Shown here in pieces: positions 2,933 to 62,708 of a stretch of DNA of 64,000 nt. The notes under the pieces were generated by a model, which had not been told where the DNA came from, ran no database searches, and was given only the letters and a program-made list of their open reading frames with translations. The stretch lies in contig NZ_CP013200.1 in NCBI RefSeq assembly GCF_001445575.1, positions 2,914,001-2,978,000 of the forward strand, written 5' to 3'. Numbering within the stretch: position 1 is the first letter of the stretch; each line of letters begins with the position of its first letter. A program made the translations under genes and the position numbers. This stretch comes from Arthrobacter alpinus (GTDB taxonomy: Bacteria; Actinomycetota; Actinomycetes; Actinomycetales; Micrococcaceae).

Positions 2933-2947
2933 GGGTCTTTGGACTCT
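2933..2947 (+). promoter_or_regulatory. DosR-like box 1 (PNPOx at 2982)
   Basis: GGGTCTTTGGACTCT resembles the mycobacterial DosR core GGGACTTNNGNCCCT with two mismatches. Its centre (2940) is 42 bp before the ATG. A TAGGCT hexamer at 2970-2975 occupies -12 to -7 if transcription starts at the ATG, and no Shine-Dalgarno is visible. A leaderless, class-II-activated promoter is inferred. Confidence 0.7.
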
Positions 2948-2981
2948 ATTGGAGCTGCCCACGCCAGCCTAGGCTCAAACC

Positions 2982-3452
2982 ATGACGAACAAACCAGCCA
3001 ATGCACCCGTCGAGGAACTAGATGCTCATGAATGCTGGGCATTTCTTCGTGGCGTTTCCGTGGGGAGACTAGCGGTATGGGTCACCGACCATCCCGACAT
3101 TTTCCCCATAAACTATGCGGTGGATCACGGAACTCTGGTGTTTCGCACGGGTCTGGGGACAAAGTTGGAGGCGGCCCTTGGCGAAACCCCCGTGGCGTTC
3201 GAGGCGGACGGAGTCGATCCGGTCAGCGGTGTCGCTTGGAGCGTTGTGGCCAAAGGCAATGCAGCACGCATCGACTCGATTGAAGAAGTTTTGGACAGTT
3301 TTTCGATCATGCTCTTCCCCTGGCAATCCGGACACAAGGACTCGTTCATCCGCATAGCGCCAACATCGCTCACGGGCCGCAAATTCACGGTAGCGGATCC
3401 AGCGCAATGGTGGACTGCCCCCGCCACGGCCCCGCATGCCGCAACAGAATGA
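2982..3452 (+). CDS. Pyridoxamine 5'-phosphate oxidase-like flavin/F420-type protein (copy 1)
   Basis: A 156-residue split-beta-barrel protein of the PNPOx-like superfamily. Diagnostic features are the N-terminal CWAFLRGVSVGRLAV segment, IFPINYAV, FRTGLGTKLE and the C-terminal LTGRKF strand. Such small proteins bind FMN, F420 or haem, and several belong to the mycobacterial DosR regulon, but the substrate cannot be read from sequence. It is one of four paralogues in the window (also 7668, 22710 and 62658), all with the W.LL....GRLAV and IFP.N(Y/F) signature and all preceded by a DosR-like box. The start is supported by the box and -10 spacing rather than a ribosome site. Confidence 0.9.
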   Translation: MTNKPANAPVEELDAHECWAFLRGVSVGRLAVWVTDHPDIFPINYAVDHGTLVFRTGLGTKLEAALGETPVAFEADGVDPVSGVAWSVVAKGNAARIDSIEEVLDSFSIMLFPWQSGHKDSFIRIAPTSLTGRKFTVADPAQWWTAPATAPHAATE

Positions 3453-3501
3453 CGGTTCCCATCCTCAAACCCGCAATACTTATCCGAAAGGCACTATAGC
3501 C

Positions 3502-4143
3502 ATGGAACAGATCACCATTATCGGCAGCGGAAACATGGCCCGGGCCATCGCCGTTCGCATGCTCAAAGCCAGGCACTCTGTGCAGATACTTGGACGCAAC
3601 GGGGAAAAGACTCGCGAGCTGGTCGAGATCCTCGGCGCAGGCGCCCAGGGCGGCGGGGAAGGCGCCGTCGTTGAAGGCGGCATCGTTTTCCTCGCGGTCC
3701 CCTTCGCAGAGGCGAAGAAATCACTGTTGTTCTACGGCGAGACACTGACAGGAAGGGTCATTGTGGATATCAGCAACCCCGTTGACCTAGCCACCTTCGA
3801 CAGCCTCGTGACTCCCGCGGGAACCTCAGCAGCCGAAGAAATTGCACTTCACGCCAGCCCTGGGGCGTTTGTTGTCAAGGCGTTCAACACCTGCTTCGCG
3901 AAGCCTCTGGAGTTGGGTTCCGTGGCCGGAGTGCCACTGGATGTCTTCATTGCCGGTGACTCGGAACAGGCCAAGGTCAAGGTCAGTGCAGTGGTTGCAG
4001 CCTCAGGTCTGCGCCCCATCGACGTAGGTCCGCTGCGCCGGGCCCGCGAACTGGAGGCCATGATGCTGCTGATCATGGGCCTGCAAGTCAGCCCTGAACA
4101 CAATAACTTCAATTGGGATACCTCTTTGAACCTCCTCCCCTAA
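3502..4143 (+). CDS. NADPH-dependent F420 reductase-like dinucleotide-binding protein
   Basis: A 213-residue protein beginning with a Rossmann strand and glycine motif (IIGSGNMA, residues 7-14), followed by LGRN and later DISNPV and VVKAFNT segments typical of the F420-dependent NADP oxidoreductase (F420_oxidored) family. These enzymes transfer hydride between NADPH and F420 or a related acceptor. It lies 49 bp downstream of a PNPOx-like gene, some of whose relatives bind F420, so a shared cofactor is plausible but unproven. The ATG at 3502 follows GAAAGG at suitable spacing. Upstream in-frame ATGs exist but would add an unconserved hydrophilic tail. Confidence 0.85.
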   Translation: MEQITIIGSGNMARAIAVRMLKARHSVQILGRNGEKTRELVEILGAGAQGGGEGAVVEGGIVFLAVPFAEAKKSLLFYGETLTGRVIVDISNPVDLATFDSLVTPAGTSAAEEIALHASPGAFVVKAFNTCFAKPLELGSVAGVPLDVFIAGDSEQAKVKVSAVVAASGLRPIDVGPLRRARELEAMMLLIMGLQVSPEHNNFNWDTSLNLLP

Positions 4144-4179
4144 ACAGTCCCGGCACGCAGCGCTCAACATGTGAACCAG

Positions 4180-4943: not shown

Positions 4944-4958
4944 AGGACTTTGTACCCT
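4944..4958 (+). promoter_or_regulatory. DosR-like box 2 (upstream of dosR)
   Basis: AGGACTTTGTACCCT matches 13 of 15 positions of the DosR core GGGACTTNNGNCCCT. A weak -10 (CAGGAT, 4981-4986) starts 30 bp from the box centre, giving a leader of about 73 nt before dosR. Autoregulation is inferred. Confidence 0.55.
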
Positions 4959-5065
4959 TGTTGGCCAATAGTGAGTAAGGCAGGATGGCAGGAGCATAAT
5001 CATGCATTGCCGAACATTGTGCAAAAAGATTCCCCAGCGGGAACTACAGCTACGGAGGGAAGACG

Positions 5066-7548
<2,483 letters not shown>

Positions 7549-7617: not shown

Positions 7618-7632
7618 GGGACCTTAGACCCT
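7618..7632 (+). promoter_or_regulatory. DosR-like box 3 (PNPOx at 7668; possibly dosS)
   Basis: GGGACCTTAGACCCT is the consensus DosR core with one pyrimidine change. The centre (7625) is 43 bp before the ATG at 7668, and TAGAGT (7655-7660) sits at the -13 to -8 position of a leaderless start. On the other strand TACCTT starts 32 bp from the centre and could serve dosS. Confidence 0.8.
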
Positions 7633-7667
7633 AAATTCCCAGAATCACTAGACGTAGAGTCGTTCAC

Positions 7668-8150
7668 ATGACTATTAATACGCCACCGTCAGGGCCTACA
7701 CCGGTGATTGAGTCGCTCACTAAGGACCAATGCTGGGAATTGCTGCGTGAACAGGTCATTGGGCGTCTGGCTCTTGTGGTTGAAGATCACCCCGAGATTT
7801 TTCCCGTCAATTATGCAGTGTGCAACGATTCTCTGGTCTTCCGAACTGCCGCAGGCACCAAACTCTACGGCTCAACTAGCAACACATCTGTTGCCTTCGA
7901 AATTGATGGCTACGATCCCTCAACAGAGCAGGCTTGGAGCGTAGTTCTGCGAGGCACGGTGCTTGCGATCAAGGCTGGCTCCGGACGTGCCGAGTCGGAA
8001 ATTTTCACACTTGAGCCATGGCAAGACGGCATCAAGAACCACTTGATGCGGATCCTGCCCCTGAACCTCAGCGGCCGGAGGTTCAAGGTCACAAAGCCTG
8101 ACATTTGGCGCACACCTTTGTCCGACGCACGGCGTGCTTCCTTCGAATAG
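7668..8150 (+). CDS. Pyridoxamine 5'-phosphate oxidase-like protein (copy 2)
   Basis: A 160-residue PNPOx-like protein with CWELLREQVIGRLALVV, IFPVNYAV, FRTAAGTKLYG, an AWSVVLRG strand and a C-terminal LSGRRFKV. It is a close paralogue of the gene at 2982. Family members bind FMN, F420 or haem; the reaction here is unknown. It has the clearest promoter of the set: a near-perfect DosR-like box and TAGAGT at -10 spacing directly before the ATG, with no ribosome-binding site, so translation from a leaderless transcript is expected. It is divergent from dosS, with 122 bp between the two starts. Confidence 0.9.
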   Translation: MTINTPPSGPTPVIESLTKDQCWELLREQVIGRLALVVEDHPEIFPVNYAVCNDSLVFRTAAGTKLYGSTSNTSVAFEIDGYDPSTEQAWSVVLRGTVLAIKAGSGRAESEIFTLEPWQDGIKNHLMRILPLNLSGRRFKVTKPDIWRTPLSDARRASFE

Positions 8151-8704: not shown

Positions 8705-8707
8705 ACT

Positions 8708-9652
8708 CTAGAGGCATCGTGGGGAAATCTGCGCCGGCACAAGCGTGTCCTCGCCTGCCCCGTGGACCTTGTACTGTTGGGCGGCTAGGCCCGCCTCTTC
8801 CTGTTGGGTAAGGACAACGGGGCATGGGACATGCAACAGCAACTCTTGGGTGGCGGAGCCCATGAAAGCGTGGTGCGCGGCTCCACTGCCGCGGCTTCCC
8901 ACCACGAGCATGGCGGCACCTTTCCCTGCCTCGATCAGCACCCGAGCCGGCACATTCTGCTGCACGAATCGACCGAGAACTGTGAGGTGTATGTGCCGGG
9001 CACGAACAGCGGCCACAACAGCTTCCAAGATCACGCGTCCCTGCGTGCCAATCTGCTCGGTCCTCCCGAATCCGTCGGCCCTGGGATCCACCCACCTTGC
9101 CGGGGAATGCGAGACACAAATGACGGTGAGCTCCTGCTGAGTATGTGCAGCCTCCGCGGCGGCAAAATATGCTGCGGCCATCGATTCGGGGGAACCATCA
9201 ATACCAACCACGACGCCGGCAGTCACGGGACACGGCCGCGCCGGGATAACTGCCACGGGACATCGCCCGACCATGGCAAGTTGAAAATTGAGCGTACCGA
9301 ATCCCCCACCATGAACATCGCCCGCCCTGTCTGTTCCGATCACCACCATGGCGGACCGGGCAGAAAGTTCTGCCAACACTTGCGCAGGCACGCCAAAATG
9401 GAGGCTGCTGCGCACCTCCACGGCAGGGGCAAACTCATGCACACTGTTGGCTTCACTGTCCAGCATGCTCAACAGGGACGCCCGGTAGCTCTGGTATTCA
9501 ACGCTCTCTGCTGAGACCAAGTAATTCGGAACTGCGTGGACCAGCAGCAGGGGCAGTTTTTGTAGCTGGGCCCGTCGCGCTGCCCATTCGAGGGCAGCCC
9601 GACTGGCGGGTGAACCATCCACCCCCACCATTATCTGAGGTTTAACGACCAC
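8708..9652 (-). CDS. Tandem-domain universal stress protein
   Basis: A 314-residue protein with two UspA domains (about residues 5-140 and 150-290). The first opens with IMVGVDGSPASRAALEWAA, the second with VVVGIDGSPESMAAA; the second ends in a canonical ATP-binding loop, VVGSRGSGAAHHAFMGSATQELLLHVPCPVVL. Two-domain USPs are abundant in the mycobacterial DosR regulon. The GTG at 9652 follows an in-frame TGA closely and is preceded by GAGAGG. A DosR-like box (9783-9797) with TAACGT 30 bp away indicates its own promoter despite co-orientation with the upstream mgtA gene. Its leader of about 95 nt contains a possible ten-codon ORF. Confidence 0.9.
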   Translation of the reverse strand: MVVKPQIMVGVDGSPASRAALEWAARRAQLQKLPLLLVHAVPNYLVSAESVEYQSYRASLLSMLDSEANSVHEFAPAVEVRSSLHFGVPAQVLAELSARSAMVVIGTDRAGDVHGGGFGTLNFQLAMVGRCPVAVIPARPCPVTAGVVVGIDGSPESMAAAYFAAAEAAHTQQELTVICVSHSPARWVDPRADGFGRTEQIGTQGRVILEAVVAAVRARHIHLTVLGRFVQQNVPARVLIEAGKGAAMLVVGSRGSGAAHHAFMGSATQELLLHVPCPVVLTQQEEAGLAAQQYKVHGAGEDTLVPAQISPRCL

Positions 9653-9782
9653 TAGTCATCGACCTCTCTACGATCATGCAAGGTCATGGCGTGTCCTTAG
9701 AGATGCACAATGCCCATCAAGAAATGCGGCTCAAGAATTGATACCCTACGTCCAACGTTAGGGGCCACTGCCTGTTGAGGAG

Positions 9783-9797
9783 AGAGCCCAAAGACCC
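9783..9797 (-). promoter_or_regulatory. DosR-like box 4 (USP at 9652)
   Basis: On the minus strand this reads GGGTCTTTGGGCTCT, one change from box 1. The hexamer TAACGT (9760-9755) starts exactly 30 bp from the box centre, the same geometry as the PNPOx promoters, and predicts a start near 9748. Confidence 0.65.
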
Positions 9798-9832: not shown

Positions 9833-12475
9833 TCATAGGGAGGCGAGTGGGTCCGGAACACTGAAGCGAGCGGCCCGGCGGTGAATGTGATGTTCGGTCC
9901 CTCGGTGGCGAACCACTGGCAGCTGTTGCAGGGGCCGGGCGAAGAACCAACTCTTGGCCACTTCAACGAGCACCAAATAGACCACTGCCATGACTAAGAG
10001 GGCCAGAAAGAACGGGACGGGTAGCGGGTCAAATCCCAGTACCGGGCCAAGGGGTGACAGTGGCAGGTAAATGCCCAGCGCCACCACGCCCACGGAAGCC
10101 AACAGCAACCCTGTGGAGGGGCGGCTGCGCAGGAACGGCACTCGGCGGGTTCTGATGGCGAAAATGATCAGTGTCTGGGTGGCGATGGATTCAATAAACC
10201 AACCTGCCCGGAACTCCCCGGGCACGGCATTAAAGACAAACAGCATCAGGGCAAAGGTCGCAAAGTCGAACAGTGAGCTGATGGGACCGAACAAGAGCAT
10301 GAAACGGCGAATGAACGCGATATCCCAATGTGAAGGAGCCTGTAGTTGTTCCTTATCGACGCGGTCCCCGGGGATGGCCAGTTGCCCGGTGTCATAAAGC
10401 AAGTTGTTGAGCAGGATTTGTCCAGGCAGCATGGGCAGAAAACTCAACACCACTGACGCTGTTGCGGCGCTAAACATATTGCCGAAATTACTTGAGGTCC
10501 CCATCAGCACGTACTTGATGGTGTTGGCAAAGATTCGCCGACCTTCCCTGACCCCTTCAGCCAAAACACCCAAGTCCTTATCCATCAGGACAATGTCCGC
10601 AGCATCCTTAGCCACGTCTGTGGCGCTCTCCACGGAGATGCCAACATCAGCATGGTGCAAGGCCAATGCATCATTGACGCCATCACCAAGAAAGCCGACG
10701 GCGCGGCCCTGATGGCGCAATTGCTTGATGATCCGTGCCTTTTGTTCCGGCGAGACGCGCGCAAAAATGCTCGTTTTCGTCACCGCAGTCCCGAGTTCGG
10801 CATCGTTCAGGTCATCAATCTGGACTCCGGTAAGCGTTCCCCCAGAGACCAAACCCAGATCCCTGCACACTTTCTCGGCAACCTTGGCGTTATCACCTGT
10901 CGCAATTTTGACGGTAATGCCCAGAGCCGCCAGCTCCTCCAACGATTCTTTGGCATTGGCCTTGGCCTTATCCAAAAAAACGAGGAAACCAGCCAACATC
11001 AGTGCCCGCTCATCAGCGGGTTCTAGTGCACTCATACCCACCACCTGCCGCGAGGCCACCGCAATAACCCGCGCCCCGGCGTCGTACTGTTCATCCAAGA
11101 GCGACTGCGCATGAGGCGGGATATCTCTACACAAAGCCATGACATCCTCGGGAGAGCCCTTGGTGACAATCTGCTGACGCCCACTCTCATCCATCAGAAC
11201 GCTGGTCATGCGACGTTGGTGGTCAAAAGGAATGATATCGAGCCGTTTCTCACTGCCAGGGGCAAAGTCACGCGCCCCGGAAGCAGCCCAGAGCGCAGCA
11301 TCCAGCGGGTTCGCACCCACTGTGGAGACAGCCCCCTGCGAGTAATCGGCCTCCGTTGAGATAAGCCCCAAAGCAAAAAGTTCGGCCTTCGACACATCAG
11401 AACGGACGGGCACTGCGAAGGTAAAACTGATGTGCCCTTCCGTGAGCGTGCCGGTTTTGTCCGTGACAAGCACGTCCATGTCACCGAGATCCTCAATGCA
11501 CACCAGCCGCTTGACCAGCACTTTCCTCTTGGCCAGTGCCCGGGTACCAGCGGCCAGACAGGTACTTACGACGGCGGGCAGCAGCTGCGGCGTGATGCCA
11601 ACAGCTATTGCGAGTGAGAAGAGCAGCGAATCCAGAAGAGGTCGCCCCAGCAGCAGGTTGGCGATGAAGATCAGAGTTGTCAGGACAACAGCCACCTGCA
11701 AGAGCAGGAACGAGAACCGTTTGAGGCCATTCTGGAATTCCGTTTGTGGCTGACGCTCCCCCAGCCCCAAGGCGACTTTGCCAAACTCCGCACGACTGCC
11801 GGTGGCGACGACGACTCCTGCGCAGCTGCCGGACTGCACCACCGTCCCCATGAAGAGACAGCAGGACATCTCGCCTAGGGGGACCACCCCTAAAATTGGT
11901 GCAGGATCCTTCTCCGCCGGCAGGGACTCCCCCGTCAGGATGCTCTCATCACACAAGAGGTCCTGCGCATCGAGCAATCTGATGTCCGCAGGGATGATCG
12001 CACCCAACCCCAGGCGGACCACATCACCGGGCACTAGATTCACCACATCGATTTGGCAGGCGGTACCGTCCCGAAGGACCACAACCGTGTGCGTGACGCG
12101 TGAATGAAGAGCCTCGGCAGCACGTTCGGCACGAAATTCATTGCTGAACCCCAAACCGACACTCACCAACAAGATGACAGCAATGACTACCGAATTCGTG
12201 GCATCCCCCAAGAACAAGGACAGCCCTGCCGTAACAATCAAAAGGATTAAGATGGGACTGCGAAGTTGCCGCCCCAGCACCACCCACGGACTGGCCTTGT
12301 GCGTGCGCAACGCGTTGGGGCCAACAACACTCAGCCGGCGAGCTGCTTCGTTACCGCCAAGACCGCGCTGCGTTGACCCAAGCTCAAGCAGAACTTCTTC
12401 GACGCTGAGGTGGATGGTTCCTGCGATGGAATGTTGTGTTAACTTCGCCGCCTCAACTGTTGCGGACGGGATCAT
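9833..12475 (-). CDS. mgtA: MgtA-type magnesium-translocating P-type ATPase
   Basis: An approximately 880-residue P-type ATPase. Motifs are the actuator TGES, the phosphorylation site DKTGTLTEG (about 339-347), a GDGVNDALAL hinge, and the P3B-specific tail MLPGQILLNNLLYDTGQLAIP..VD followed by FGPISSLFDFATF. This points to Mg2+ import rather than heavy-metal export. The ATG at 12475 is preferred because GAGG lies 8 nt upstream; ATG 12487 is an alternative. Both overlap the 3' end of the upstream USP gene (stop 12453), so translation is probably coupled and the pump shares the USP's DosR-like promoter. Mycobacterial DosR regulons also carry a P-type ATPase (ctpF), of a different subfamily. Confidence 0.9.
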   Translation of the reverse strand: MIPSATVEAAKLTQHSIAGTIHLSVEEVLLELGSTQRGLGGNEAARRLSVVGPNALRTHKASPWVVLGRQLRSPILILLIVTAGLSLFLGDATNSVVIAVILLVSVGLGFSNEFRAERAAEALHSRVTHTVVVLRDGTACQIDVVNLVPGDVVRLGLGAIIPADIRLLDAQDLLCDESILTGESLPAEKDPAPILGVVPLGEMSCCLFMGTVVQSGSCAGVVVATGSRAEFGKVALGLGERQPQTEFQNGLKRFSFLLLQVAVVLTTLIFIANLLLGRPLLDSLLFSLAIAVGITPQLLPAVVSTCLAAGTRALAKRKVLVKRLVCIEDLGDMDVLVTDKTGTLTEGHISFTFAVPVRSDVSKAELFALGLISTEADYSQGAVSTVGANPLDAALWAASGARDFAPGSEKRLDIIPFDHQRRMTSVLMDESGRQQIVTKGSPEDVMALCRDIPPHAQSLLDEQYDAGARVIAVASRQVVGMSALEPADERALMLAGFLVFLDKAKANAKESLEELAALGITVKIATGDNAKVAEKVCRDLGLVSGGTLTGVQIDDLNDAELGTAVTKTSIFARVSPEQKARIIKQLRHQGRAVGFLGDGVNDALALHHADVGISVESATDVAKDAADIVLMDKDLGVLAEGVREGRRIFANTIKYVLMGTSSNFGNMFSAATASVVLSFLPMLPGQILLNNLLYDTGQLAIPGDRVDKEQLQAPSHWDIAFIRRFMLLFGPISSLFDFATFALMLFVFNAVPGEFRAGWFIESIATQTLIIFAIRTRRVPFLRSRPSTGLLLASVGVVALGIYLPLSPLGPVLGFDPLPVPFFLALLVMAVVYLVLVEVAKSWFFARPLQQLPVVRHRGTEHHIHRRAARFSVPDPLASL

Positions 12476-12974
12476 CGCCGTCCTCATGGCTCGCAGTCGC
12501 CGACACGGTCACCCTCGCTGAGTCCCTCTCGCCATGAACCACTAGGACCGGACAGCCTGCGTGTTCGGCGCAGGCCGAGCTGACTGAACCCAGCAGCATC
12601 CCCGCGAAGCCACCATGTCCACGGGAACCAACAATGAGCATCTGCGCGGACTTGCTGTGCTCCATCAACACTCTGGCGGGCGTGCCTCGAACACACACAC
12701 CGCTAAACCCTTCGGGCGGGTTGCCTCCAAAGGCCTCCTGTACGGCGTCCTTGAGGATCTGGTGCGCCCCCTCGTCCGGGTCCCAATCAGGGACTATGTA
12801 CGAGCCGAAAACCGTTTCCAGGTGCCAGGCGGTAACGGCTGTGATGGTTGCATCCAGCGCGTGCGCCAGCGTTTGCGCCCACTTCAGGGCCAGCACAGAC
12901 TCGGGTGATCCGTCCACTCCAACCACGATGCGCGAACCCTCGTGGATTGTCTTTTCTTCCATGGCTTGATCCAT
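12453..12974 (-). CDS. Single-domain universal stress protein
   Basis: A 173-residue UspA-family protein opening with IVVGVDGSPESVLALKWA and carrying the ATP-binding loop VGSRGHGGFAGMLLGSVSSACAEHAGCPVLVV near residues 122-152. Such proteins bind ATP or other nucleotides and help growth arrest. GTG 12983, ATG 12974 and ATG 12962 are all possible; 12974 is chosen for the GAGAAAG just upstream. Its end overlaps the mgtA start, making a two-gene unit. The promoter contains the consensus DosR-like box 5, shared with the divergent phosphoketolase. Confidence 0.9.
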   Translation of the reverse strand: MDQAMEEKTIHEGSRIVVGVDGSPESVLALKWAQTLAHALDATITAVTAWHLETVFGSYIVPDWDPDEGAHQILKDAVQEAFGGNPPEGFSGVCVRGTPARVLMEHSKSAQMLIVGSRGHGGFAGMLLGSVSSACAEHAGCPVLVVHGERDSARVTVSATASHEDGDDPVRNS

Positions 12975-13044
12975 CTTTCTCACGCTTTCACTTTTCTCAA
13001 AGTCTTTTCAGTTCAATGATCGACGCCGGGAAAGGTTGCTGCAC

Positions 13045-13060
13045 AGGGTCAAAGGTCCCT
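13045..13060. promoter_or_regulatory. DosR-like box 5, divergent (usp-mgtA and xfp)
   Basis: On the minus strand GGGACCTTTGACCCT matches the core GGGACYTTNGNCCCT fully, and the flanking base makes a 16-bp near-palindrome. GATCAT (13021-13016) starts 31 bp away towards usp-mgtA, and CAGTCT (13083-13088) starts 31 bp away towards the phosphoketolase. One site may drive both units. Confidence 0.8.
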
Positions 13061-13168
13061 AACCATCGAGTCTGGAAAGTGCCAGTCTTGAGTTGGCGGA
13101 TGTGTTCTTCCTGTGTCCGCTGGCCAGCCCTTGCGTCTGTGCCACCGACTGAGGACACGGAGACAGTC

Positions 13169-15679
13169 TTGAACAGCCAGCTCGCCCAAACCAGCCACGG
13201 ACAGCAAAGCGTTGCCGACCCCACGCAGGTCTCGGAGGAATTTGAGCTCCTAAACCGGTACTGGGATGCTGCCAACTATTTGACGGTGGCGCAGATCTAC
13301 CTTCAGGAGAATGCTCTCTTGAAGCAGGCGCTGACGGCCGAACACATCAAGCCTCGGTTGCTGGGCCATTGGGGAACCAGCCCCGGACTGTCATTGATTT
13401 ACGTCCATCTAAATCGGCTCATTCGCAGTACCGGGGCCAAAGTCCTGTTCGTGGCCGGCCCCGGACATGGTGGACCGGCGGTGATTGCCAACCTGTACCT
13501 GGAGGGCAGCTACTCCGAGATCTATCCCCGCGTCAGTCAAGACCCCAAGGGGTTGCGTCGGTTGATCCGGCAGTTTTCCACCCCTGGGGGCATACCGAGT
13601 CATGTGGGTCCCCCAACACCGGGTTCCATTCATGAAGGCGGCGAGCTGGGCTATTCGCTGGCCCATGCGGCGGGTGCAGTCATGGACAACCCGGACCTGA
13701 TAGTTGCGTGCGTTGTTGGCGACGGGGAAGCAGAAACCGGCCCCTTGGAGGGCGCATGGAAAGCGCCCGCCTTCCTCAACCCAAGCCGGGACGGGGCCGT
13801 GTTGCCCATACTTCACCTCAACGGCTACAAGATCTCCGGACCTACAGTTCTGGGACGCCAATCCGACGAACAAGTCATGGCACTACTTCGGGCACACGGC
13901 TGGGAGCCCGTGGTGGTCTCCGGCAGTGATCCTGCCGTGGTCCACCCCATGCTGGCTCAAGCATTGGATAGCGCGCACGCCAGGATTCTGCAGATTCAAG
14001 AGCAGGCGCGCCAGCATGGTGCCAACGCTCCGGCGCTCTGGCCGGCCATCATCCTGCGGACCCCGAAAGGGTGGACGGGCCCGGACTTTGTTGACGGCGT
14101 TGCCATGGAAGGCACTTTCCGCTCACATCAGGTGCCTTTGGCAGGAGTTCGTGAAAACCCGGCCCACCTGGCCCAGCTGGAAGCGTGGCTGCGCAGCTAC
14201 AAACCCGAAACACTCTTTGACGCGCAGGGCCGGCTAGTACCCGAGCTGGCGGATCTGGCCCCCGATGCGGAGCTGCGCATGGGCGCCAACCCCTGGGCAA
14301 ATGGTGGCCTGGACGTGGCGCCTCTTCCCATGCGTCCCTTGGACAATTACGCCTTGGAAGTGGGCACTCCCGGATCGATGAAACACGAGACCACAAGACC
14401 CTTGGGTGAGATGCTGCGGGATATTTACGTAGATACGGCGCAGGACCCTCGTTTTAGGCTGTTCAGTCCGGACGAGACAAACAGCAACCGTCTGGGCGCA
14501 GTTTTCGAAGTCACCGAAAGATGCATGATGGTGCCGGCACGTGACGGCGATGACCACCTGTCACCGGATGGCAGAGTCATGGAAGTCCTCTCCGAACACC
14601 TCTGCCAGGGCTGGCTTGAGGGATACGTTCTTACCGGGCGGTACGGCCTTTTCGCCACCTATGAAGCCTTCGCGATGGTGAGCGCATCCATGACTATCCA
14701 ACATTCAAAGTGGCTCCAGCATGCCCGTGAACTGCCGTGGCGGAAACCCGTGCCAAGCCTAAACATTCTGCTCACCTCAACGTGTTGGCGCAACGACCAT
14801 AACGGTTTCAGCCACCAGGGGCCGGGATTGATCGACACTGTTCTTTCCCTTTCTGGTTCGGTAGTCCGTGTCTACCTTCCGCCGGATTCCAACACGCTGC
14901 TGGCCGTGGCTGAACATGTCCTGCTCAGCAAGGACTACGTCAACCTGGTGGTGGTGGACAAACAGGCCCACCCCCAGTATTTGAACTTGGAGGACGCCCG
15001 CAAGCACGCAGCCGCCGGTGCGTCTATCTGGCAGTGGGCCGGAAACGAGGATGCACCCAGCAAGAGAACCCCCCACAGCAGAGCCTTGGTTGGCACCGAG
15101 TCCTCCATCACCACCGCTGACGAGCCCGCATTGCGGGCACAGCCGGATATTGTTCTGGCCTGCGCCGGCGATGTGCCGACAGAAGAGACCTTGGCAGCGG
15201 CCTGGTTACTCCAACATCATGTCCCCGGACTGAAGGTGCGCGTGGTCAATGTGATGGACGCCTTAGTGCTGCCGCCCCCGGACGTGCACCCGCACGGCCT
15301 TGCCGATCCAGACTTTGAAAAACTGTTCACGACAAACGGTGAAGTAATAGTCGCGTGGCACGGATATGCCCGCGCGTTCCATCAGCTCCTGCATGGACGC
15401 TTGAATCCAGGTAGATTCCATGTTCGGGGCTACAGCGAACAAGGAACCACCACGACTCCGTTTGACATGGTGGTACTCAACAAGATGAGCCGATACCACC
15501 TTGCCTTAGAAGCCTTGCGCCGGGTCAATGGTCACTTTGATGGCGCCCAGGAGCTGGCAGAGCACTGCAGTGCGATGCTTTCTAACCATGAAGCGTATAT
15601 TCACGAGCATCTGGAGGATCTGCCGGAAATTCGGGATTGGGTCTGGACACCCCCAGCTCAGAGCCGAGAAGCAGTATGA
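13169..15679 (+). CDS. xfp: Xylulose-5-phosphate/fructose-6-phosphate phosphoketolase
   Basis: An 836-residue thiamine-diphosphate enzyme, normal length for the family. It cleaves xylulose-5-P or fructose-6-P with phosphate to give acetyl phosphate. Visible signatures are LGHWGTSPGLSLIYVHLNRLI, AGPGHGGPA, the TPP-binding GDGEAETGPLEGAWKA, and the C-terminal LTSTCWRNDHNGFSHQGPG block. TTG 13169 (MNSQLAQ) is chosen because it has GGAG upstream and conserved sequence starts soon after (LLNRYWDAANYL); the longer ORF to 12848 would run through the divergent promoter. Its stop overlaps the next USP gene by ATGA. Acetyl phosphate can yield ATP by substrate-level phosphorylation, which fits a hypoxia programme. 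Confidence 0.93.
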   Translation: MNSQLAQTSHGQQSVADPTQVSEEFELLNRYWDAANYLTVAQIYLQENALLKQALTAEHIKPRLLGHWGTSPGLSLIYVHLNRLIRSTGAKVLFVAGPGHGGPAVIANLYLEGSYSEIYPRVSQDPKGLRRLIRQFSTPGGIPSHVGPPTPGSIHEGGELGYSLAHAAGAVMDNPDLIVACVVGDGEAETGPLEGAWKAPAFLNPSRDGAVLPILHLNGYKISGPTVLGRQSDEQVMALLRAHGWEPVVVSGSDPAVVHPMLAQALDSAHARILQIQEQARQHGANAPALWPAIILRTPKGWTGPDFVDGVAMEGTFRSHQVPLAGVRENPAHLAQLEAWLRSYKPETLFDAQGRLVPELADLAPDAELRMGANPWANGGLDVAPLPMRPLDNYALEVGTPGSMKHETTRPLGEMLRDIYVDTAQDPRFRLFSPDETNSNRLGAVFEVTERCMMVPARDGDDHLSPDGRVMEVLSEHLCQGWLEGYVLTGRYGLFATYEAFAMVSASMTIQHSKWLQHARELPWRKPVPSLNILLTSTCWRNDHNGFSHQGPGLIDTVLSLSGSVVRVYLPPDSNTLLAVAEHVLLSKDYVNLVVVDKQAHPQYLNLEDARKHAAAGASIWQWAGNEDAPSKRTPHSRALVGTESSITTADEPALRAQPDIVLACAGDVPTEETLAAAWLLQHHVPGLKVRVVNVMDALVLPPPDVHPHGLADPDFEKLFTTNGEVIVAWHGYARAFHQLLHGRLNPGRFHVRGYSEQGTTTTPFDMVVLNKMSRYHLALEALRRVNGHFDGAQELAEHCSAMLSNHEAYIHEHLEDLPEIRDWVWTPPAQSREAV

Positions 15680-16870: not shown

Positions 16871-17106
16871 CTGCGCCGAGGCTGCTGCTGAGCCAAGCTC
16901 AGTGCCAGTTTCGGGCACAGGCTGACCGCATCGCGGGCAGCCTGTGCGTCCCCAGGACCTATCACCACGTTGGTGCGGTCCCCGCCCCGGGCGTGTCTGG
17001 CCAAGGGGTATCCCCAGTCGTCACGGCCCAATACGGTGGGCAGCAGTTCTGTGCAGAGACCGCGCCCGTCGCATTTGGTCCAGTCGATATGCAGTATCTC
17101 GTTCAT
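16867..17106 (-). CDS. Small single-cluster ferredoxin
   Basis: A 79-residue ferredoxin with KCDGRGLC near residues 11-18 and a distal LCP near 61-63. Only three candidate cluster cysteines are visible, as in [3Fe-4S] or atypical [4Fe-4S] ferredoxins of actinobacteria. Its ATG overlaps the stop of the NuoF-like gene by ATGA, so it is the last gene of the redox operon. It probably passes electrons between the NuoF-like protein and a partner. The gene ends against the convergent VIT1 gene with 4 bp of overlap. Confidence 0.85.
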   Translation of the reverse strand: MNEILHIDWTKCDGRGLCTELLPTVLGRDDWGYPLARHARGGDRTNVVIGPGDAQAARDAVSLCPKLALSLAQQQPRRS

Positions 17107-18356
17107 GCGGTCCTCCTGAGCGTTCTGGTGCAGCTTCCCGAAAGATGGGCCTTGACGTCGTCGGAAAATGTCTCCAGAGCACTGGCGACCAAGCGGAGCG
17201 CCCCATCCGGATGGTGGCAGGCTCCACGTCCACCCACCAGGTTGCCCAATCGCTGCAGTTCCCCAACCAGACTCGGGTCCGGGGCGCCGTAAGCGATCGC
17301 ATTCAGGACTCGGGCCATGGCCGGTAGGCCAAACATGCACGGCCCGCACTGTTTGGCGGATTCTCCAGCCAGGTAGCTGAGCATACGGGCGGTGGCTTCC
17401 AACCCGCAATCCCCGGTTGAGAGGACGTGCAGCACACCCGCGCCGGGGCGGATCACCTGGCCCGCCGGACCCGACGGTGACAAGGTATAGTCCAGCGGCC
17501 GCACCCACTGTCCGTGGTAGCCGCCCACCAAAACTGCCCTGACATCTGAGCGATCGACGCCGGCACGGCCCAGAATGCTGGCTAGGCTTGCGTCTCCTTC
17601 CACTTCCAGCACCTGCTCGGCGCAATGGCCAGAGACGGAGATGAGCCGCGTCCCGGGGTCCCGCTCCGAGCCAACCGAACGGAACCAACCCACCCCATGG
17701 CGGGCAATGAGGGCCACGTGGGCCAGGGTCTCAACATTCAGCACCAGAGTCGGCCGGCCCTTGACGCCGGATTCGCTGAGCCGGCGTCGGTTATCCAGAG
17801 GCAGTGCAATACCGTTGGCGATGCTGTTGACCACGGCGCTTGCCTCCCCCGAGATGAACGATTCAGGGGCTTCGGTTACCTTGATTTTGCGCGCATCGCG
17901 GCGCCCCGCCACGGCAGCTTGAACCGAACGCATGGCCGACGGTGTGGTGTAAATGTACAACAGCGAGGCGGACACTGCGCGTCCGGCGATCAAGAGCCCA
18001 TCAATAACAAGGTGCGGTGCGTGGGTCAGCAAGGTCTTGTCCTTGAAACTGAGGGGTTCTCCCTCCGCCCCGTTAGCTATCACCACCGGCTTGGCTCCCA
18101 GCAGCGCACCACCGCGGCCCTGGTCCGTCGCAGCGAGCTTGCGCCACGAAGCGAACGCTGCGCCGCCGCGACCTGTCAACCCGGATTGCTCCAACACGGA
18201 GATGAAGTCTGCGCCGATGGTCTCCAACGACAATGGGCCAAACGTTTGTTCATGGACGCCGAAGGTCGGGTTGGATCCGGCGGCGAAGAGCTGGTAGTTG
18301 GCCGCACCGTCCCAGCCTTGGGCGGCAGAAACGGAAGCTGCACGTTGCGGCGTCAT
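17103..18356 (-). CDS. NuoF-like (NADH-dehydrogenase 51-kDa-type) Fe-S flavoprotein
   Basis: A 417-residue protein related to NuoF and the flavin subunits of bifurcating dehydrogenases. It shows GLTGRGGAAFASWRKL (FMN/NADH loop, about residues 60-75), NGAEGEPLSFKDKTLL, an SLBB-like segment, and a C-terminal Fe-S site with CGPC plus a downstream Cys (GGRGACHHPDG). The ATG at 18356 shares an ATGA overlap with the ferric-reductase-like gene; the longer open frame upstream lies over that gene and is not real. It presumably draws electrons from NAD(P)H or ferredoxin and feeds the membrane partner. Confidence 0.88.
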   Translation of the reverse strand: MTPQRAASVSAAQGWDGAANYQLFAAGSNPTFGVHEQTFGPLSLETIGADFISVLEQSGLTGRGGAAFASWRKLAATDQGRGGALLGAKPVVIANGAEGEPLSFKDKTLLTHAPHLVIDGLLIAGRAVSASLLYIYTTPSAMRSVQAAVAGRRDARKIKVTEAPESFISGEASAVVNSIANGIALPLDNRRRLSESGVKGRPTLVLNVETLAHVALIARHGVGWFRSVGSERDPGTRLISVSGHCAEQVLEVEGDASLASILGRAGVDRSDVRAVLVGGYHGQWVRPLDYTLSPSGPAGQVIRPGAGVLHVLSTGDCGLEATARMLSYLAGESAKQCGPCMFGLPAMARVLNAIAYGAPDPSLVGELQRLGNLVGGRGACHHPDGALRLVASALETFSDDVKAHLSGSCTRTLRRTA

Positions 18357-18910
18357 CTCAGGGCTCCTGTTCGTGCTTTTGCGGTTTCCAAAAAGTTTAT
18401 TGACAAGCGCCACGCTACTGCAGCGCCTACGGCCGCCACTGACCCAGCGGCCAGCACCAGGAACCACTTGCTTGTCCCGTTGGTGCCATTGCCTATGGCG
18501 TGGGCCAGAGCAATGGGCCACATGGCGTAGCTGAACCAGTGGACGGCGCGAAAAGTCCGCTGGCCAATGCGCTGGCGCAGCAACCCCGTGACCATCAGGG
18601 CCAGAACCAGATCGAACGCGACGGTGCCAAGGCCCTGCCAGAACGGTTTGAAGGCCCCCAGGAAGGGGACAACGACGTCGGTCACGGTGAGTTTCGCATA
18701 AGAGTCCAGCATCAACGACCCCACATGGAGGAAAAGGAAGACTGTTGCCAGCAAGGAGATGTTGCGGTGTATCAACGTTATGGAGAAGCGCGGTATCCCA
18801 GGTAATGGCCGCCCCGAGCGGGTCAATATACCCAAAAGTACGCTCACGGTAAGCAACGCCAGGGAGGCGAATCCGCTCACCCTGCCAAAGGCCCACATGG
18901 CGTTATCCAT
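18353..18910 (-). CDS. Ferric-reductase-like transmembrane protein
   Basis: A 185-residue integral membrane protein with five to six hydrophobic helices. Histidines lie in the helices at LIHRNISLL, FLFLHVGSL and FRAVHWFSYAMWPIALAHA, consistent with b-type haem ligation in the ferric-reductase-like domain family. It lacks the cytosolic FAD/NAD domains of full reductases; the neighbouring NuoF-like protein and ferredoxin may supply that role. The ATG at 18910 overlaps the apbE stop by 8 bp. A longer open frame to 19558 lies over apbE and is a shadow. Confidence 0.87.
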   Translation of the reverse strand: MDNAMWAFGRVSGFASLALLTVSVLLGILTRSGRPLPGIPRFSITLIHRNISLLATVFLFLHVGSLMLDSYAKLTVTDVVVPFLGAFKPFWQGLGTVAFDLVLALMVTGLLRQRIGQRTFRAVHWFSYAMWPIALAHAIGNGTNGTSKWFLVLAAGSVAAVGAAVAWRLSINFLETAKARTGALR

Positions 18911-19865
18911 TTGATCCAGCTCCCGTCGCGGCCATGCTTGCTGGTTGAAATGAGGGCTGGTCCTTGGGCCATCCCCCCGTGGTGACAATGCGGCCCTGCG
19001 CGTCAACGAGGCGCGCAACAACGCCAATCCGGTCAAACCATTCCGGGGCCGCGAATCCGCGGACGATCCCAGCGGTGCTGAAAGCATTTGCCAGTAGGGC
19101 TGAGGTGGCTGCCACGGTGACGGTCCGCCAGACTGGCTCCGCCGGAAGCCCAAACCTGGGGTCCAGGATGTGGTGGACAGTGTGTCCGGCATGCTGCCAC
19201 CGCCGCTTCTGTGTGCTCGAGGTGGCCATGGCATTGCCAGCCTTGAGGGTAAGCTGCTGGCTGGGATCCTGCGACAGGTCCTGGACCAGCACCTGCCAGC
19301 CGCCCTCCGGGCTGGGACCGGCCGTGGCGATGTCACCACCCAGGGAGACCAGAACACCGCATCCGAGCTCCGCCGCCACTCGCGCTGCGGCGCGGTCCGC
19401 GGCGACGGCCTTGGCCGTGGCCCCCAGGTCGAGCCGAAGATCCTCCGGGACGGTGAGGATTTGCCTGTCAATGGACACTCGCTGCCATCCTGGGGTGCGT
19501 GGTTGCGTGCGGGTGACGGCAACGGCGGCGCCGTCGGGATGGAGCCGCACCTGGGCAAGGTCTCTGTCGTAGCCTAAGGCTGCCAGGTCCATGCCAAGGG
19601 TGGGGTCAACATCGCCCCCTGTCCACTTGGCAGCATCGAGGGCGCTGGCAACCAGCAGAGCCAGCAGCGGGCTCACCCTGGCACCGGCAGCAAGACCCGG
19701 TTGCAGGCTCGTCAGCTCCGAATCCGGGCGGAAGCGGCTGCAAGCCTGATCCACGCTGGCGATCTCGTCACGGACCACACCTTCGGCGGCGCTGGCCAAG
19801 CCGGCCTCGGTGACGGTAAGGGTAGCCTCCAGCCCCCACACTTCCCAGGATTTTGAAGACTCCAC
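18903..19865 (-). CDS. apbE: ApbE-family FAD:protein FMN transferase
   Basis: A 320-residue ApbE protein. Recognisable blocks are LDLGATAKAVAADRAA, LVSLGGDIATAG, MATSSTQKRRW and HHILDPRFGLPAE, in the order seen in flavin transferases that attach FMN from FAD to Thr/Ser of target proteins outside the membrane. No signal peptide or lipobox is apparent. The GTG at 19865 immediately follows the stop of the small anchored protein. It sits between a candidate acceptor and the membrane reductase, suggesting it flavinylates a component of this operon, although no standard FMN_bind domain is encoded here. Confidence 0.88.
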   Translation of the reverse strand: MESSKSWEVWGLEATLTVTEAGLASAAEGVVRDEIASVDQACSRFRPDSELTSLQPGLAAGARVSPLLALLVASALDAAKWTGGDVDPTLGMDLAALGYDRDLAQVRLHPDGAAVAVTRTQPRTPGWQRVSIDRQILTVPEDLRLDLGATAKAVAADRAAARVAAELGCGVLVSLGGDIATAGPSPEGGWQVLVQDLSQDPSQQLTLKAGNAMATSSTQKRRWQHAGHTVHHILDPRFGLPAEPVWRTVTVAATSALLANAFSTAGIVRGFAAPEWFDRIGVVARLVDAQGRIVTTGGWPKDQPSFQPASMAATGAGSNG

Positions 19866-19866
19866 G

Positions 19867-22658: not shown

Positions 22659-22673
22659 GGGTCTTTGGACCCT
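22659..22673 (+). promoter_or_regulatory. DosR-like box 6 (PNPOx at 22710)
   Basis: GGGTCTTTGGACCCT is a near-perfect palindrome and differs from the DosR core only at the A/T fourth base. The centre is 44 bp before the ATG, and TAGAAT (22697-22702) starts 31 bp from the centre, matching boxes 1 and 3. Confidence 0.8.
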
Positions 22674-22709
22674 AGTTTCACCTGAGCGCATCTGCGTAGA
22701 ATCGCTCAG

Positions 22710-58995: not shown

Positions 58996-59890
58996 CTGTT
59001 AAGATCCAGCACAACCCCGTCCTTGATTCTTGCCAAGACCTGGCTGCAGTCCAATTGGACCAGCATGTCTGGAATGACCTCGCACCAGTACCGAGGTGCA
59101 GCCACCATTGGCTGTGGCCGCCCACGCAGGAAATAGGGAACCACGGTGGTTTTCCCGGGCCAGTTTTGACTCCAGTCGATGAACACCTTTCCGCAGCGCA
59201 GGGACCTGTCCATGCGACTGACCGCCAGATCCGGATGCCGATGTTCGATGGCCTAGGCCAGCTCCTGCGCAAGGGTGGCAGCCTCGTCCGAGGTCCTTCG
59301 CCCGTCAAGCGGAGCATAGAGGTGCATGCCCTTGCTTCCGATCGTATCCGGCACGCAGTCGAGTCCATGCTGGGCCAGGAAGTCCCGTGCAATGAGTGAG
59401 ACGGCGGCACATTCAGTCAGGCCCGCACCCTCGCCAAGGTCCAGGTCAAGCAACACACGGTCCGGATGCCACGGCTCACCGTCGTTTGCAACAAATATCC
59501 ATTGCGGGACGTGAATCTCCAGGGCGGCAATCTGTGCCAACCACGCCAACGTCCGTTCATAGGTGACGAGCGGATACATGTTGCCATAGTCCTTGTGATG
59601 CATTGTGCGGCGCAGAACCCATGAAGGAGTCGCTGCAAGAGATTCTTCTGGAAGAGGCTCTTACCCGGTTTGGATTCCGTCCCCACCCCGTCCACCCCGC
59701 GCTTCCACATTGCTGGTCGGTTCCTGACCCACGGAATCAGGAATGGTGCCACCTGCTTGCAGTAGCGCGCCACAGCCGCCTTCGTGTTGCCGGTGTCCGG
59801 GTACAGCACCTTGTCCGGGTTGGTGATTCTGACCGCCGCGCCGTCCACGGGCATGTCCAGCCCGCCCGGCACCTGTTCCTCATTGGTCAT
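58980..59890 (-). pseudogene. Broken LigD-type polymerase/primase domain gene
   Basis: The start at 59890 encodes VRITNPDKVLYPDTGNTKAAVARYCKQVAPFLIPWVRNRPAMWKR and FFQKNL-like sequence, the opening of the LigD polymerase domain used in NHEJ. After frameshifts come WIFVANDGEPWHPDRVLLDLDLGEGAGL, GSKGMHLYAPLDG and DRSLRCGKVFIDWSQN, with a TAG between. The C-terminus fuses with the antiporter remnant near 58990. Its start lies 8 bp inside the upstream USP gene, so they were once coupled. Confidence 0.8.
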
Positions 59891-60344
59891 GCGCTGGTCC
59901 GTCGGCTTCCTTTCCTGTGTTCACAACCAACACGGGACAGTGTGCATGGGCCACGCAGGCCTGGCTGACAGAACCGAGCAGGAGCCCGGCGAAGCCCCCG
60001 TATCCCCTGCGTCCGACAACAAGCATGTCCGAGCCGGCGCTCATTTCTATGAGTTTCTGTCGCGGCTGTCCATGGACCAAGGTCGTCGACATATTTGCCG
60101 GCAGTGGCATGCCGAAAGTGCTGGTGACGGTGTCCTGCAGAAGTTGCCTGGTACCTTCTTCGAGTTCCACTGAGCCCAAGGCATAGGGAACCACCAAGGA
60201 CGTGGGAGCGTTCCAACATGCAACCACATCAAGCCACCATCCAGTTGCATTGGCCATGCGTGCAGCTTCCTTGAGCGCCGCAATAGACCCGGAGGACCCA
60301 TCAACTCCGACAACAATTTTACCCATTTCCTGATTTGCGCTCAC
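59880..60344 (-). CDS. Universal stress protein (right-end copy)
   Basis: A 154-residue UspA protein with IVVGVDGSSGSIAALKEAARMA at the start and the nucleotide loop VVGRRGYGGFAGLLLGSVSQACVAHAHCPVLVV at about 112-144. Its sequence style is close to the USP at 15676. GTG 60344 is preferred because GAAAGG lies at good spacing; ATG 60326 has AGGA too close. A DosR-like box (60413-60427) precedes it. It remains intact amid pseudogenes. Confidence 0.9.
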   Translation of the reverse strand: MSANQEMGKIVVGVDGSSGSIAALKEAARMANATGWWLDVVACWNAPTSLVVPYALGSVELEEGTRQLLQDTVTSTFGMPLPANMSTTLVHGQPRQKLIEMSAGSDMLVVGRRGYGGFAGLLLGSVSQACVAHAHCPVLVVNTGKEADGPAHDQ

Positions 60345-60412
60345 TGTATGTGCCTTTCTTCGACGCCATGGCCATCTGTCGTCCATGCTGCTGTGCCATG
60401 GCTCCTATGTAT

Positions 60413-60427
60413 AGGGTCCAACGGCAC
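60413..60427 (-). promoter_or_regulatory. DosR-like box 8 (USP at 60344)
   Basis: Minus-strand GTGCCGTTGGACCCT has a perfect right half (TTGGACCCT) and three mismatches to box 6 on the left. CAGCAT starts 30 bp from the centre, leaving a 33-nt leader. It may also act on the divergent UbiB copy. Confidence 0.5.
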
Positions 60428-60542
60428 CATTCCTTTTCCGGGCCCGTAGCCGGGCCAAGCATTCGGGGCCTTTGGCTCTGTGGCCCGCCCCAGTCCGGGA
60501 ATACTCTGGCTGGCATAACGTCACGCTTGGTATTGCAACCGT

Positions 60543-60567
60543 CCTGGTTGTTTGGCACACAACCAGG
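60543..60567. promoter_or_regulatory. Hairpin upstream of the second UbiB copy
   Basis: A perfect 9-bp inverted repeat (CCTGGTTGT/ACAACCAGG) with a 7-base loop, 28 bp before the GTG start. Operator or attenuator functions are both possible. Confidence 0.4.
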
Positions 60568-60594
60568 CCCACAAAGTAGAACCTGTAGCAGGGA

Positions 60595-62239
60595 GTGGCC
60601 AAGCACTTTGAACGATACGCGGAAGTCGCGGAAATTCTGATCCGGCACGGATTCGGCTCGATCGCCCCGTTGCTCGGGCTTGGGCAGGTGCATCTGGGCC
60701 CTCCGCTGCTCAGGGTTGGCACACGGGCCACTCAAGAGCAGCTGGTTGTGACGTTGGAGGAACTTGGCCCCACATTCATCAAGCTCGGCCAGCTACTCTC
60801 AACACGCCCGGACGTTCTTCCCCCGGCAGCACATTGCCGCACTGGCACGACTTCAGGACGATGTTCCTCCCCTGGTGCCGGAACAGGTCCGAACCATCAT
60901 CGAACAGGAATTTGGGGGCTTCCCCGACGTTGCTTTCGCCACCTTTATGGACGCCCCTCTCGCCAGCGCCTCCATCGGCCAAGCCCACGCGGCAACCTTG
61001 GACGACGGCACCTCGGTCGTCGTGAAGGTACGCAGTCCCGGCGTCGTTGCCCCGGTGCAGGAGGATCTGGAAATACTGCAGAACTTGGCCCACCAGGCCA
61101 GCCGCAACTGGGCTGCCCAGGCCGACTACAACGTGGAGGCCATAGTGTCCACGTTTGCGGCAACGCTGCGTGCCGAACGGGACTACCTTGTGGAGGGACG
61201 GAATGCGAAGCGGTTCGCCCAGAATTTTGCCCATGACACCGGCGTTCACATTCCAAAAATTTACTGGTCAACCACCACGTCCAGGGCCTTGACGATGGAA
61301 AGCATCTACGGCCAGAGGATTGATGACGCGCAGGTGACCGGCCTGCCCGTGGTTGACAGGGACCGGCTGACCACCACGGCGGCCAAGGCAGCAGCCCAGA
61401 AGATCTTCGAGGACGGCTTCTTTCATGCCGACCCGCATCCCGGGAACCTATTTGTGGAGGCCACTGGCCGGATTGGGCTGATCGACTTTGGCATGGTGGG
61501 AGAACTGGATGAACAACTTCAAAAGCGGCTCGGCAAACTCCTACTTGCCTTCAGCCGCAACAACCCCGAACGAATCAGTCACGCACTGCTGGGACTCTCG
61601 GTCAACTGGTGTGCCTCCGACTGTGGGGGCCTCCGGCAGGACATGGCGGATTTTATGCAGCAATACCGGGGTCGGCGACTGGGCGAGATCCGGCTTGCGC
61701 CGCTGATCGTCGAAATGGTGACCATCCTGCGCACCCACCACATCCAACTACTCAGCGGAATTGCCCTGCTGACGAAAATGGTCACCATGACCGAAGGCAA
61801 CGGGGTGGGCCTCCACCCTGGCTTCAACCTCGGCGAAGTGCTCAAACCCTACGCCCGGCCGGCTGGCTCTTGAACAAAGCAGCCCACAAAAGCTGCTGGA
61901 CTGCTCAAGCAACTGGGCCTGGACGCTGCCGCCTTTGGTACAGACATTCCGGAAAGGCTGGATCGCATGTTGCAGTAACTCGACGACGGCGTCGAAGTGC
62001 ATCTTCGTGCCGAGGAACTCGCTCCACTTGTTGCCAGGGCCGAACGCATTGGCAACCGGCTGGTGGCCGGCCTGATTTTCGCGGCCTTCATTCTGGGCAT
62101 CGGCGAACTGACGGCCGCGGACCGTCGGCATCTGCAAACCTGGCAGAACAACCTGTTGGCCACCGGTGTCGGGGCCTTGGGCGCCATGGGCGGGTACTTG
62201 GCCTGGACGTCCCGTCCCGGGCTACGCATCCGCCGCTAA
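60595..62239 (+). pseudogene. Second ABC1/UbiB gene, frameshifted
   Basis: From GTG 60595 the protein follows the intact copy (MAKHFERYAEVAEILIRHGFG, KLGQLLSTRPDVLPP), then shifts frame near 60825 in a C/G run. The new frame carries ASASIGQAHAATL, VVVKVRSPGV, FFHADPHPGNLF and LIDFGMVGE to a TGA at 61873. A third frame holds the C-terminus (HLRAEELAPLVARAERIGNRLVAGL) after another shift and a TAA near 61977. Motifs are all well kept, so decay is recent. No product of full length can be made unless the shifts are sequencing errors. Confidence 0.8.
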
Positions 62240-62658
62240 TATCTGTCCGGCTCGCCGCCAAGCACAAACCTTCGGCCGGCCACACTAGCTGGAGTGATCT
62301 CGATGTAGGTCCATTTCCGTGTCTTGGTCCAGGATTCAAGGTGGAGCAGATCGGCGGCGTCAATCTCCGTCTGGGACTCCACCACCCTGACAGTTCCCTT
62401 GACTACCACGCTCCACGCTTCCCCGTCACCGACCTCGTCGCTTTCCAACGCCACCAAGGCATTGATTGCCATCTCGGCGAGCTTGGTGCCTGGATTTGTC
62501 CTAATCCAAATCTTGTCTGCGGTAGCGACGAAATTCAGCGGGAAAATGTCTGGCTGGTTGGCGACGCAGACGGCCAACCTGCCAAACCGGCTGCCCTGCA
62601 GCAACCCCCATGATTCGTTCCCTGACAACACAACCCCGGGCTCTTCGTCACTGTTCAT
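62236..62658 (-). CDS. Pyridoxamine 5'-phosphate oxidase-like protein (copy 4)
   Basis: A 140-residue PNPOx-like protein with ESWGLLQGSRFGRLAVCV, IFPLNFVATADKIWIRTNPGTKLAE, AWSVVVKG and VAGRRFVLG. It is a paralogue of copies 1-3 but more diverged (NF for NY). ATG 62658 (MNSDEEPG) is chosen over ATG 62682 because DosR-like box 9 is centred 43 bp upstream with GATGAT at -10 spacing, as in the other three. It converges on the broken UbiB gene with 4 bp of overlap. Confidence 0.88.
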   Translation of the reverse strand: MNSDEEPGVVLSGNESWGLLQGSRFGRLAVCVANQPDIFPLNFVATADKIWIRTNPGTKLAEMAINALVALESDEVGDGEAWSVVVKGTVRVVESQTEIDAADLLHLESWTKTRKWTYIEITPASVAGRRFVLGGEPDRY

Positions 62659-62693
62659 GATCCGATCATCATCCCGTTCCATGCCGTTTGGGT

Positions 62694-62708
62694 AGGGCCC
62701 AAGGACCG
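62694..62708 (-). promoter_or_regulatory. DosR-like box 9 (PNPOx at 62658)
   Basis: Minus-strand CGGTCCTTGGGCCCT matches 13-14 of 15 positions allowing for degenerate bases. The centre (62701) is 43 bp from the ATG, and GATGAT (62670-62665) starts 31 bp away. Confidence 0.65.

Follow-up and report, generated by a model that had tools for sequence, protein, structure and literature searches.

The 64,000-nucleotide stretch of the Arthrobacter alpinus genome analysed here (the window; 2914001-2978000 of a genome whose two contigs add up to 4.33 Mb) carries genes for a DosR/DevR-like response regulator and a DosS/DosT-like sensor kinase, amid repeated DNA boxes that match the published DosR consensus. 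We propose, with a probability of about 0.9, that the window holds the central part of a DosR/DevR (OsdR)-type regulon in a Micrococcaceae-type bacterium. An earlier note on this DNA had suggested such a regulon outside mycobacteria, and the suggestion is now backed by homology, by boxes beyond the window, by relatives and by co-occurrence over 149 genomes. The boxes form an island of ~115 kb, larger than the window, with 20 boxes scoring at least 15 and three weaker boxes counted in. Its contents include the DevR-like regulator, the DosS-like kinase, universal stress proteins (USPs), PNPOx-like proteins, HSP20, PfkB, a P-type ATPase, alcohol dehydrogenases (ADHs), phosphoketolase, phosphoenolpyruvate (PEP) synthase, Pta and a second, partly broken dosRS block. 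Feature coordinates are window positions; seven-digit positions refer to the genome.

The regulator (5066-5764, +) is of the NarL family, with receiver and LuxR-type DNA-binding domains. Its best match in the PDB is M. tuberculosis DevR (3c3w, E 4.7e-62), with VraR as runner-up at 2.4e-35, and a ten-residue stretch, which we take to hold the DNA-reading residues, is identical to DevR in the alignment. Its closest named relatives, in the first six rows of matches, are from Arthrobacter, Pseudarthrobacter and Paenarthrobacter, at 73-79% identity over the best segment. The kinase (5758-7545, -) has a GAF-GAF-HisKA_3-HATPase layout, and its top five structure matches are all DosS/DosT-type GAF domains (E 6e-51 to 1e-47), which bears out the earlier claim that DosR- and DosS-like proteins lie beside the boxes. 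In the alignments the proximal histidine, within HPPM, is retained; it presumably corresponds to H149, which binds heme in DosS, and sensing by the kinase may involve heme. The two genes lie tail to tail here and in 22 of the 23 loci from Micrococcaceae and Cryobacterium.

Boxes, clustering and promoter spacing

All nine boxes of the earlier note are found. As 16-mers, with putative -10 hexamers in brackets, they are box 1 at 2933-2948, + (TAGGCT, 2970-2975); box 2, upstream of dosR, at 4944-4959, + (CAGGAT, 4981-4986); box 3 at 7618-7633, + (TAGAGT, 7655-7660); box 4 at 9782-9797, - (TAACGT, 9760-9755); box 5 at 13044-13059, - (GATCAT, 13021-13016); box 6 at 22659-22674, + (TAGAAT, 22697-22702); box 7 at 23475-23490, + (TAGCTT, 23512-23517); box 8 at 60412-60427, - (CAGCAT, 60390-60385); and box 9 at 62693-62708, - (GATGAT, 62670-62665). 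The nine are real, and the count fell one short: a tenth box of score 13.1 had been overlooked at 60465-60480 (+), with TACTCT at 60502-60507 as its -10, facing an ABC1-family gene split over two frames (from 60595). This tenth box is 37 bp from box 8 and in the opposite orientation.

Sites were scored with a 16-base matrix made from the nine window sites (consensus GGGTCTTTGGACCCTA), strong boxes being those of at least 15; 200 kb in ten stretches and the outer 120 kb served as controls, and distances are counted from the first base of the 16-mer. The nine sites are the top nine scores of the window on their own matrix (15.6-23.7; next best 13.1). Left out one at a time, with a 20-base matrix, each ranks 6-11 among ~128,000 window positions, a test that alone is not independent because the sites were picked by eye for their likeness.

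Stronger evidence comes from outside the window. There the matrix finds 11 boxes of at least 15 (2913471-, 2913496+, 2983867+, 2993354-, 2993411+, 3002785-, 3005197-, 3022638-, 3022721+, 3023654+ and 3027676+), all within 2.913-3.028 Mb, and no such site in either control, the ten stretches peaking at 14.4. The box at 3005197 has no more than doubtful frames as a candidate target gene. The exact core GNCYTTNGNCYCTA, drawn from the window sites, has 15 matches genome-wide, 11 of which fall within the 109 kb of 2913471-3022651 (four in the window, seven outside); the evidence of the core is this clustering, not the number of its matches. The mycobacterial consensus GGGACTTNNGNCCCT, with at most one mismatch, matches eight times in the 144 kb of 2894001-3038000 and never in the outer 120 kb or the 200 kb control. 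One of these matches, 2911809, falls 1.7 kb short of the island and, with a score below 9 on our matrix, was not counted as a box.

The spacing to the -10 was uniform in the earlier note. A strict TANNNT at 37-38 nt accompanies five of the nine window boxes, and all nine once C or G is allowed in place of the first T. Among the 13 held-out boxes (the 11 of at least 15, plus 2998086 at 14.8 and 2981088 at 14.4), six have TANNNT at this distance, or four of 11 at 15 or above, against a background of 0.6% per two-position slot; both weaker boxes have it. The -10 distance thus recurs in held-out boxes, in keeping with the earlier argument that the spacing makes chance unlikely. At any other offset from 28 to 59, TANNNT is absent from the held-out set, with one stray at 49 in the window, and at the matching distance on the opposite side of the box it occurs in 0 of 22. 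The box therefore stands at a fixed distance from the -10, in the -35 position; in M. tuberculosis, the accessible text places the proximal DosR site over the -35 (PMC3029386). A fixed second upstream box as in M. tuberculosis was considered and set aside, as no fixed spacing was found. Another box-like site (score at least 5) occurs at -90 to -16 for 44% of 106 boxes and in 18% of random stretches.

The genome scan proposed by the earlier note was run in part. The core followed by 21 bp and TANNNT, with 0-1 mismatch, gives 12 matches, 11 of them in the island; the sole outside match, 2125420, has no same-strand frame of more than 80 codons starting within 400 nt. At two mismatches, a level discarded as uninformative, 36 more appear (eight in the island), for a total of 48 against 62 for the reversed form.

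Relatives and co-occurrence with DosR

The same boxes recur in other genomes. Twenty Micrococcaceae loci (392 kb) hold 47 boxes of at least 15 against two for the reversed matrix, with TANNNT at 37-38 in 15 of the 47; three Cryobacterium loci hold five against none, and 57 loci of other actinobacteria hold 31 against none. The relatives' boxes precede USP, PNPOx, ADH, phosphoketolase and dosR genes. Of 22 relative loci (L031-L053, with L039 left out), counted by eye, 16 have a box of at least 13 no more than 300 bp upstream of dosR, and 13 of the 22 have one that points to dosR.

A close DosR (E at or below 1e-60) is found in 46 of 149 Micrococcaceae genomes and 13 of 32 genera, with 19 candidates scored in most genomes. 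The box with its -10, at no more than one mismatch, occurs in 45 of the 46 genomes with DosR and in 15 of the 103 without it; the means per genome are 3.02 and 0.17, against 1.46 and 1.03 for the reversed control. The p-value of this survey, ~1e-24, takes no account of relatedness. Within genera the mean is higher with DosR in all nine that contain both kinds, five of which have a single genome without DosR and four a single genome with it. Several Micrococcaceae genomes have two to five DosR matches at this threshold, and one relative locus (L043:1658-2293) has a second DosR-like regulator near dosR, 35% identical to it.

Another NarL/LuxR-type regulator of this genome might read the boxes, leaving the adjoining DosR incidental. 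Candidates exist, since nine further full-length relatives of DosR (E at or below 1e-20; 31-36% identity) are encoded elsewhere in the genome, besides the split second copy. We regard this as improbable, as the box and its -10 track a close DosR over the 149 genomes and within mixed genera, the boxes match the published DosR consensus, and most relatives carry one near dosR.

Several observations weigh against the regulon as we read it. The kinase gene is convergent to dosR and stands outside its operon. Two window -10s, CAGGAT and CAGCAT, are weak, as the earlier note had already judged them. Seven of the 13 held-out boxes lack TANNNT at 37-38, as do all four of the weaker island candidates (13.2-13.8) that were excluded from the held-out count. 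The boxes noted at 23475, 60413 and 62694 (the last two being the 16-mers from 60412 and 62693) fit the mycobacterial consensus only at three mismatches, a level that gives 64 window matches and is uninformative. Genome-wide, the exact core is clustered and not more frequent, its reversed form having 12 matches. Beyond Micrococcaceae and Cryobacterium, TANNNT at 37-38 accompanies one box in 31, and the exact -10 may therefore be a family trait. The genome survey is uncorrected for phylogeny. Finally, a loose two-mismatch pattern, tried and rejected as a genome-wide test, is not enriched (446 matches against 945 reversed), as would be expected if the boxes were chance, GC-rich palindrome-like matches chosen by eye. 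Against the held-out boxes, the clustering of the exact core, the -10 spacing, the relatives and the genome survey, chance is scarcely credible.

Beyond the boxes, their spacing and their conservation, which are shown, we infer DosR binding, activation and hypoxic induction, and propose the following model for the DosR-type regulon. Judging by homology, the DosS-like kinase would use its first GAF domain to sense low oxygen, nitric oxide or a redox change, and would phosphorylate DosR. DosR would then bind the box, covering about -50 to -34 and replacing a -35 element, and assist the main RNA polymerase at a -10 of TANNNT type, which starts 21-22 bp past the box. The regulon would raise USPs, PNPOx-like proteins, HSP20, PfkB, the Mg-type P-ATPase, ADHs, PEP synthase with Pta and, plausibly, phosphoketolase, in support of survival and of an energy metabolism that is fermentative or substrate-level. 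DosR may also regulate its own gene, since box 2 lies upstream of it.

Candidate targets, predicted leaderless starts and the second dosRS block

Box 1 lies 49 nt before the ATG at 2982 of PNPOx-like protein A (Pyridox_ox_2; 2982-3452, +), whose gene overlaps that of an NADP/F420-type oxidoreductase (3436-4143, +), so that the two probably form one operon. Box 3 lies 50 nt before the ATG at 7668 of PNPOx-like protein B (7668-8150, +), and box 4 is upstream of a USP with two Usp stretches (8708-9652, -). Box 5 is upstream of another USP gene (12453-12983, -), which overlaps that of a P-type ATPase of the Mg-translocating type (9833-12487, -; TIGR01524 above cut-off). It is divergent to a phosphoketolase gene (12848-15679, +) whose true start is probably near 13.2 kb, because the XFP domain begins at residue 130. 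Because box 5 points the other way, phosphoketolase is only a plausible target; in one relative locus (L032), a box (14.4) points to the phosphoketolase copy. Box 6 lies 51 nt before the ATG at 22710 of PNPOx-like protein C (22710-23180, +), and box 7 is 50 nt before the GTG at 23525 of a zinc-binding ADH family protein (23525-24652, +). A USP gene (59880-60386, -), by eye probably starting at GTG 60344, lies next to box 8. Box 9 lies 50 nt before the ATG at 62658, the start preferred from spacing for PNPOx-like protein D (62236-62682, -), which is 36-40% identical to the other copies and was not scanned against Pfam.

The island as a whole encodes six PNPOx-like proteins (pairwise identity 36-78%) and two zinc ADHs behind or beside boxes. 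Further box-associated genes encode F420/NADP-type oxidoreductases, a GH65/HAD protein, a GAF protein, HSP20 followed by PfkB, and a PEP synthase whose gene overlaps that of Pta. A first Pfam reading of the PEP synthase as pyruvate phosphate dikinase gave way to NCBIfam, and no acetate kinase was found beside Pta among minus-strand frames of at least 90 codons in 2997.0-2998.4 kb. Phosphoketolase and Pta both handle acetyl phosphate, which would suit low-oxygen energy metabolism, as would ADHs, which may reoxidise NADH. USPs and HSP20 are candidate targets that the island shares with known DosR/OsdR regulons; the mycobacterial one also has PfkB, a CtpF-type ATPase and a PNPOx-like protein among its members. 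Also inside the island, with no box of at least 13 near, a NuoF-like protein lies next to an ApbE-family protein (17103-20108, -).

The start codons keep a distance of their own. Among ATG and GTG starts of frames with 100 codons or more, eight lie 49-51 nt from the 23 island boxes, against 0.94 per three-offset slot elsewhere; Micrococcaceae and Cryobacterium have 15 for 52 boxes against 2.41, and other actinobacteria 14 for 31 boxes against 1.91. The window's five are those at 2982, 7668, 22710, 23525 and 62658, behind boxes 1, 3, 6, 7 and 9. Since 6-7 nt separate the -10 from the start codon, the expected transcription start coincides with that codon or adjoins it, and leaderless mRNA is predicted for about one third of boxes. 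Leaderless genes as such are ordinary, since 24% of M. smegmatis transcripts are leaderless, with TANNNT preferred (PMC6448022, from the part consulted). In the literature searched, no statement was found of a fixed start-codon place behind DosR boxes; the accessible part of one study puts an OsdR box at -50 of the S. coelicolor PNPOx gene SCO0214 (PMC5069765). It is tempting to speculate, tentatively and at well under even odds, that DosR-type promoters across Actinomycetota follow a rigid grammar of box, 21/22 bp, -10, ~7 bp and start codon, much of the regulon being leaderless by design. If so, dormancy genes would be translated without a 5' leader, a mode that may persist when normal initiation shuts down in hypoxia.

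A second dosR-dosS pair, also tail to tail, lies just past the window end (2978651-2980917). DosR2 (2978651-2979252) falls into two frames whose pieces are 76% and 63% identical, and the adjoining DosS2 is likewise in two frames. Next comes box 2981088, then a PNPOx copy that loses similarity past residue 119; farther downstream are copies of PNPOx (78%), ADH (83%) and the F420 oxidoreductase (76%). As the frames read in the assembly, the block appears partly decayed. The window's last boxes (60412, 60465 and 62693) stand at its edge, and these and some past the window may be its non-working relics. The split DosR2 and DosS2, the degraded PNPOx copy and the ABC1-family kinase gene (60595-61873), itself in two frames, would fit such an origin. 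PNPOx-like proteins D and F, the USP at 59880 and the ADH copy, by contrast, have open frames with boxes, and the intact DosR could serve them; we hold the relic explanation possible, and the less likely one. By eye, further ABC1-like fragments lie at 62688-63962. Beyond the window a 174-residue protein (L115:9157-9681, -; L115:651 is 2978651) is membrane-like by eye and has no Pfam or NCBIfam match; a weaker box (11.7) whose -10 is CACCAT precedes its ATG by 50 nt.

Relation to known DosR and OsdR systems

DosR/OsdR regulons outside mycobacteria are already known, and the member proposed here has solid support from its sequence. A literature search, with most subscription journals outside its reach, found no report of a DosR-type regulon for Arthrobacter or Micrococcaceae. 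Rhodococcus equi belongs to another order of Actinomycetota. Its putative DosR boxes likewise indicate a regulon outside Mycobacterium, by prediction only in the text available (PMC2947987).

The OsdR regulon of Streptomyces, for which the accessible sections report electrophoretic mobility shift assays, is a close precedent outside mycobacteria (PMC5069765). As described there for OsdR/OsdK of S. coelicolor, it shares with the island a DevR-like regulator with boxes clustered around and before its gene, and targets that include USPs, a zinc ADH, PNPOx (box at -50) and also pyruvate phosphate dikinase. It differs in that its consensus, AGGGCCGATCGGCCCT, is differently centred from the island box, that osdR and osdK form an operon whereas the island's kinase and regulator genes converge, and that it includes nitrate reductase genes, to which none of the proteins scanned here corresponds.

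The mycobacterial DosR/DevR system, in the parts of the reports consulted, resembles the island in its GAF-GAF kinase, DevR-type DNA-binding domain, consensus, proximal site over the -35, and USP and heat shock protein targets (PMC3029386, PMC10034137, PMC6448022). Unlike the mycobacterial regulon, the one proposed here includes six paralogues of PNPOx-like type, PEP synthase with Pta and, plausibly, phosphoketolase; its dosR and dosS genes are convergent, and a further dosRS copy lies close by. Dormancy control of the DosR/OsdR kind would thus extend to Micrococcaceae, here with a promoter rule that is quantified, and non-pathogenic strains of Arthrobacter type may offer a safe model for such control, for the many PNPOx-like proteins and for the predicted leaderless output.

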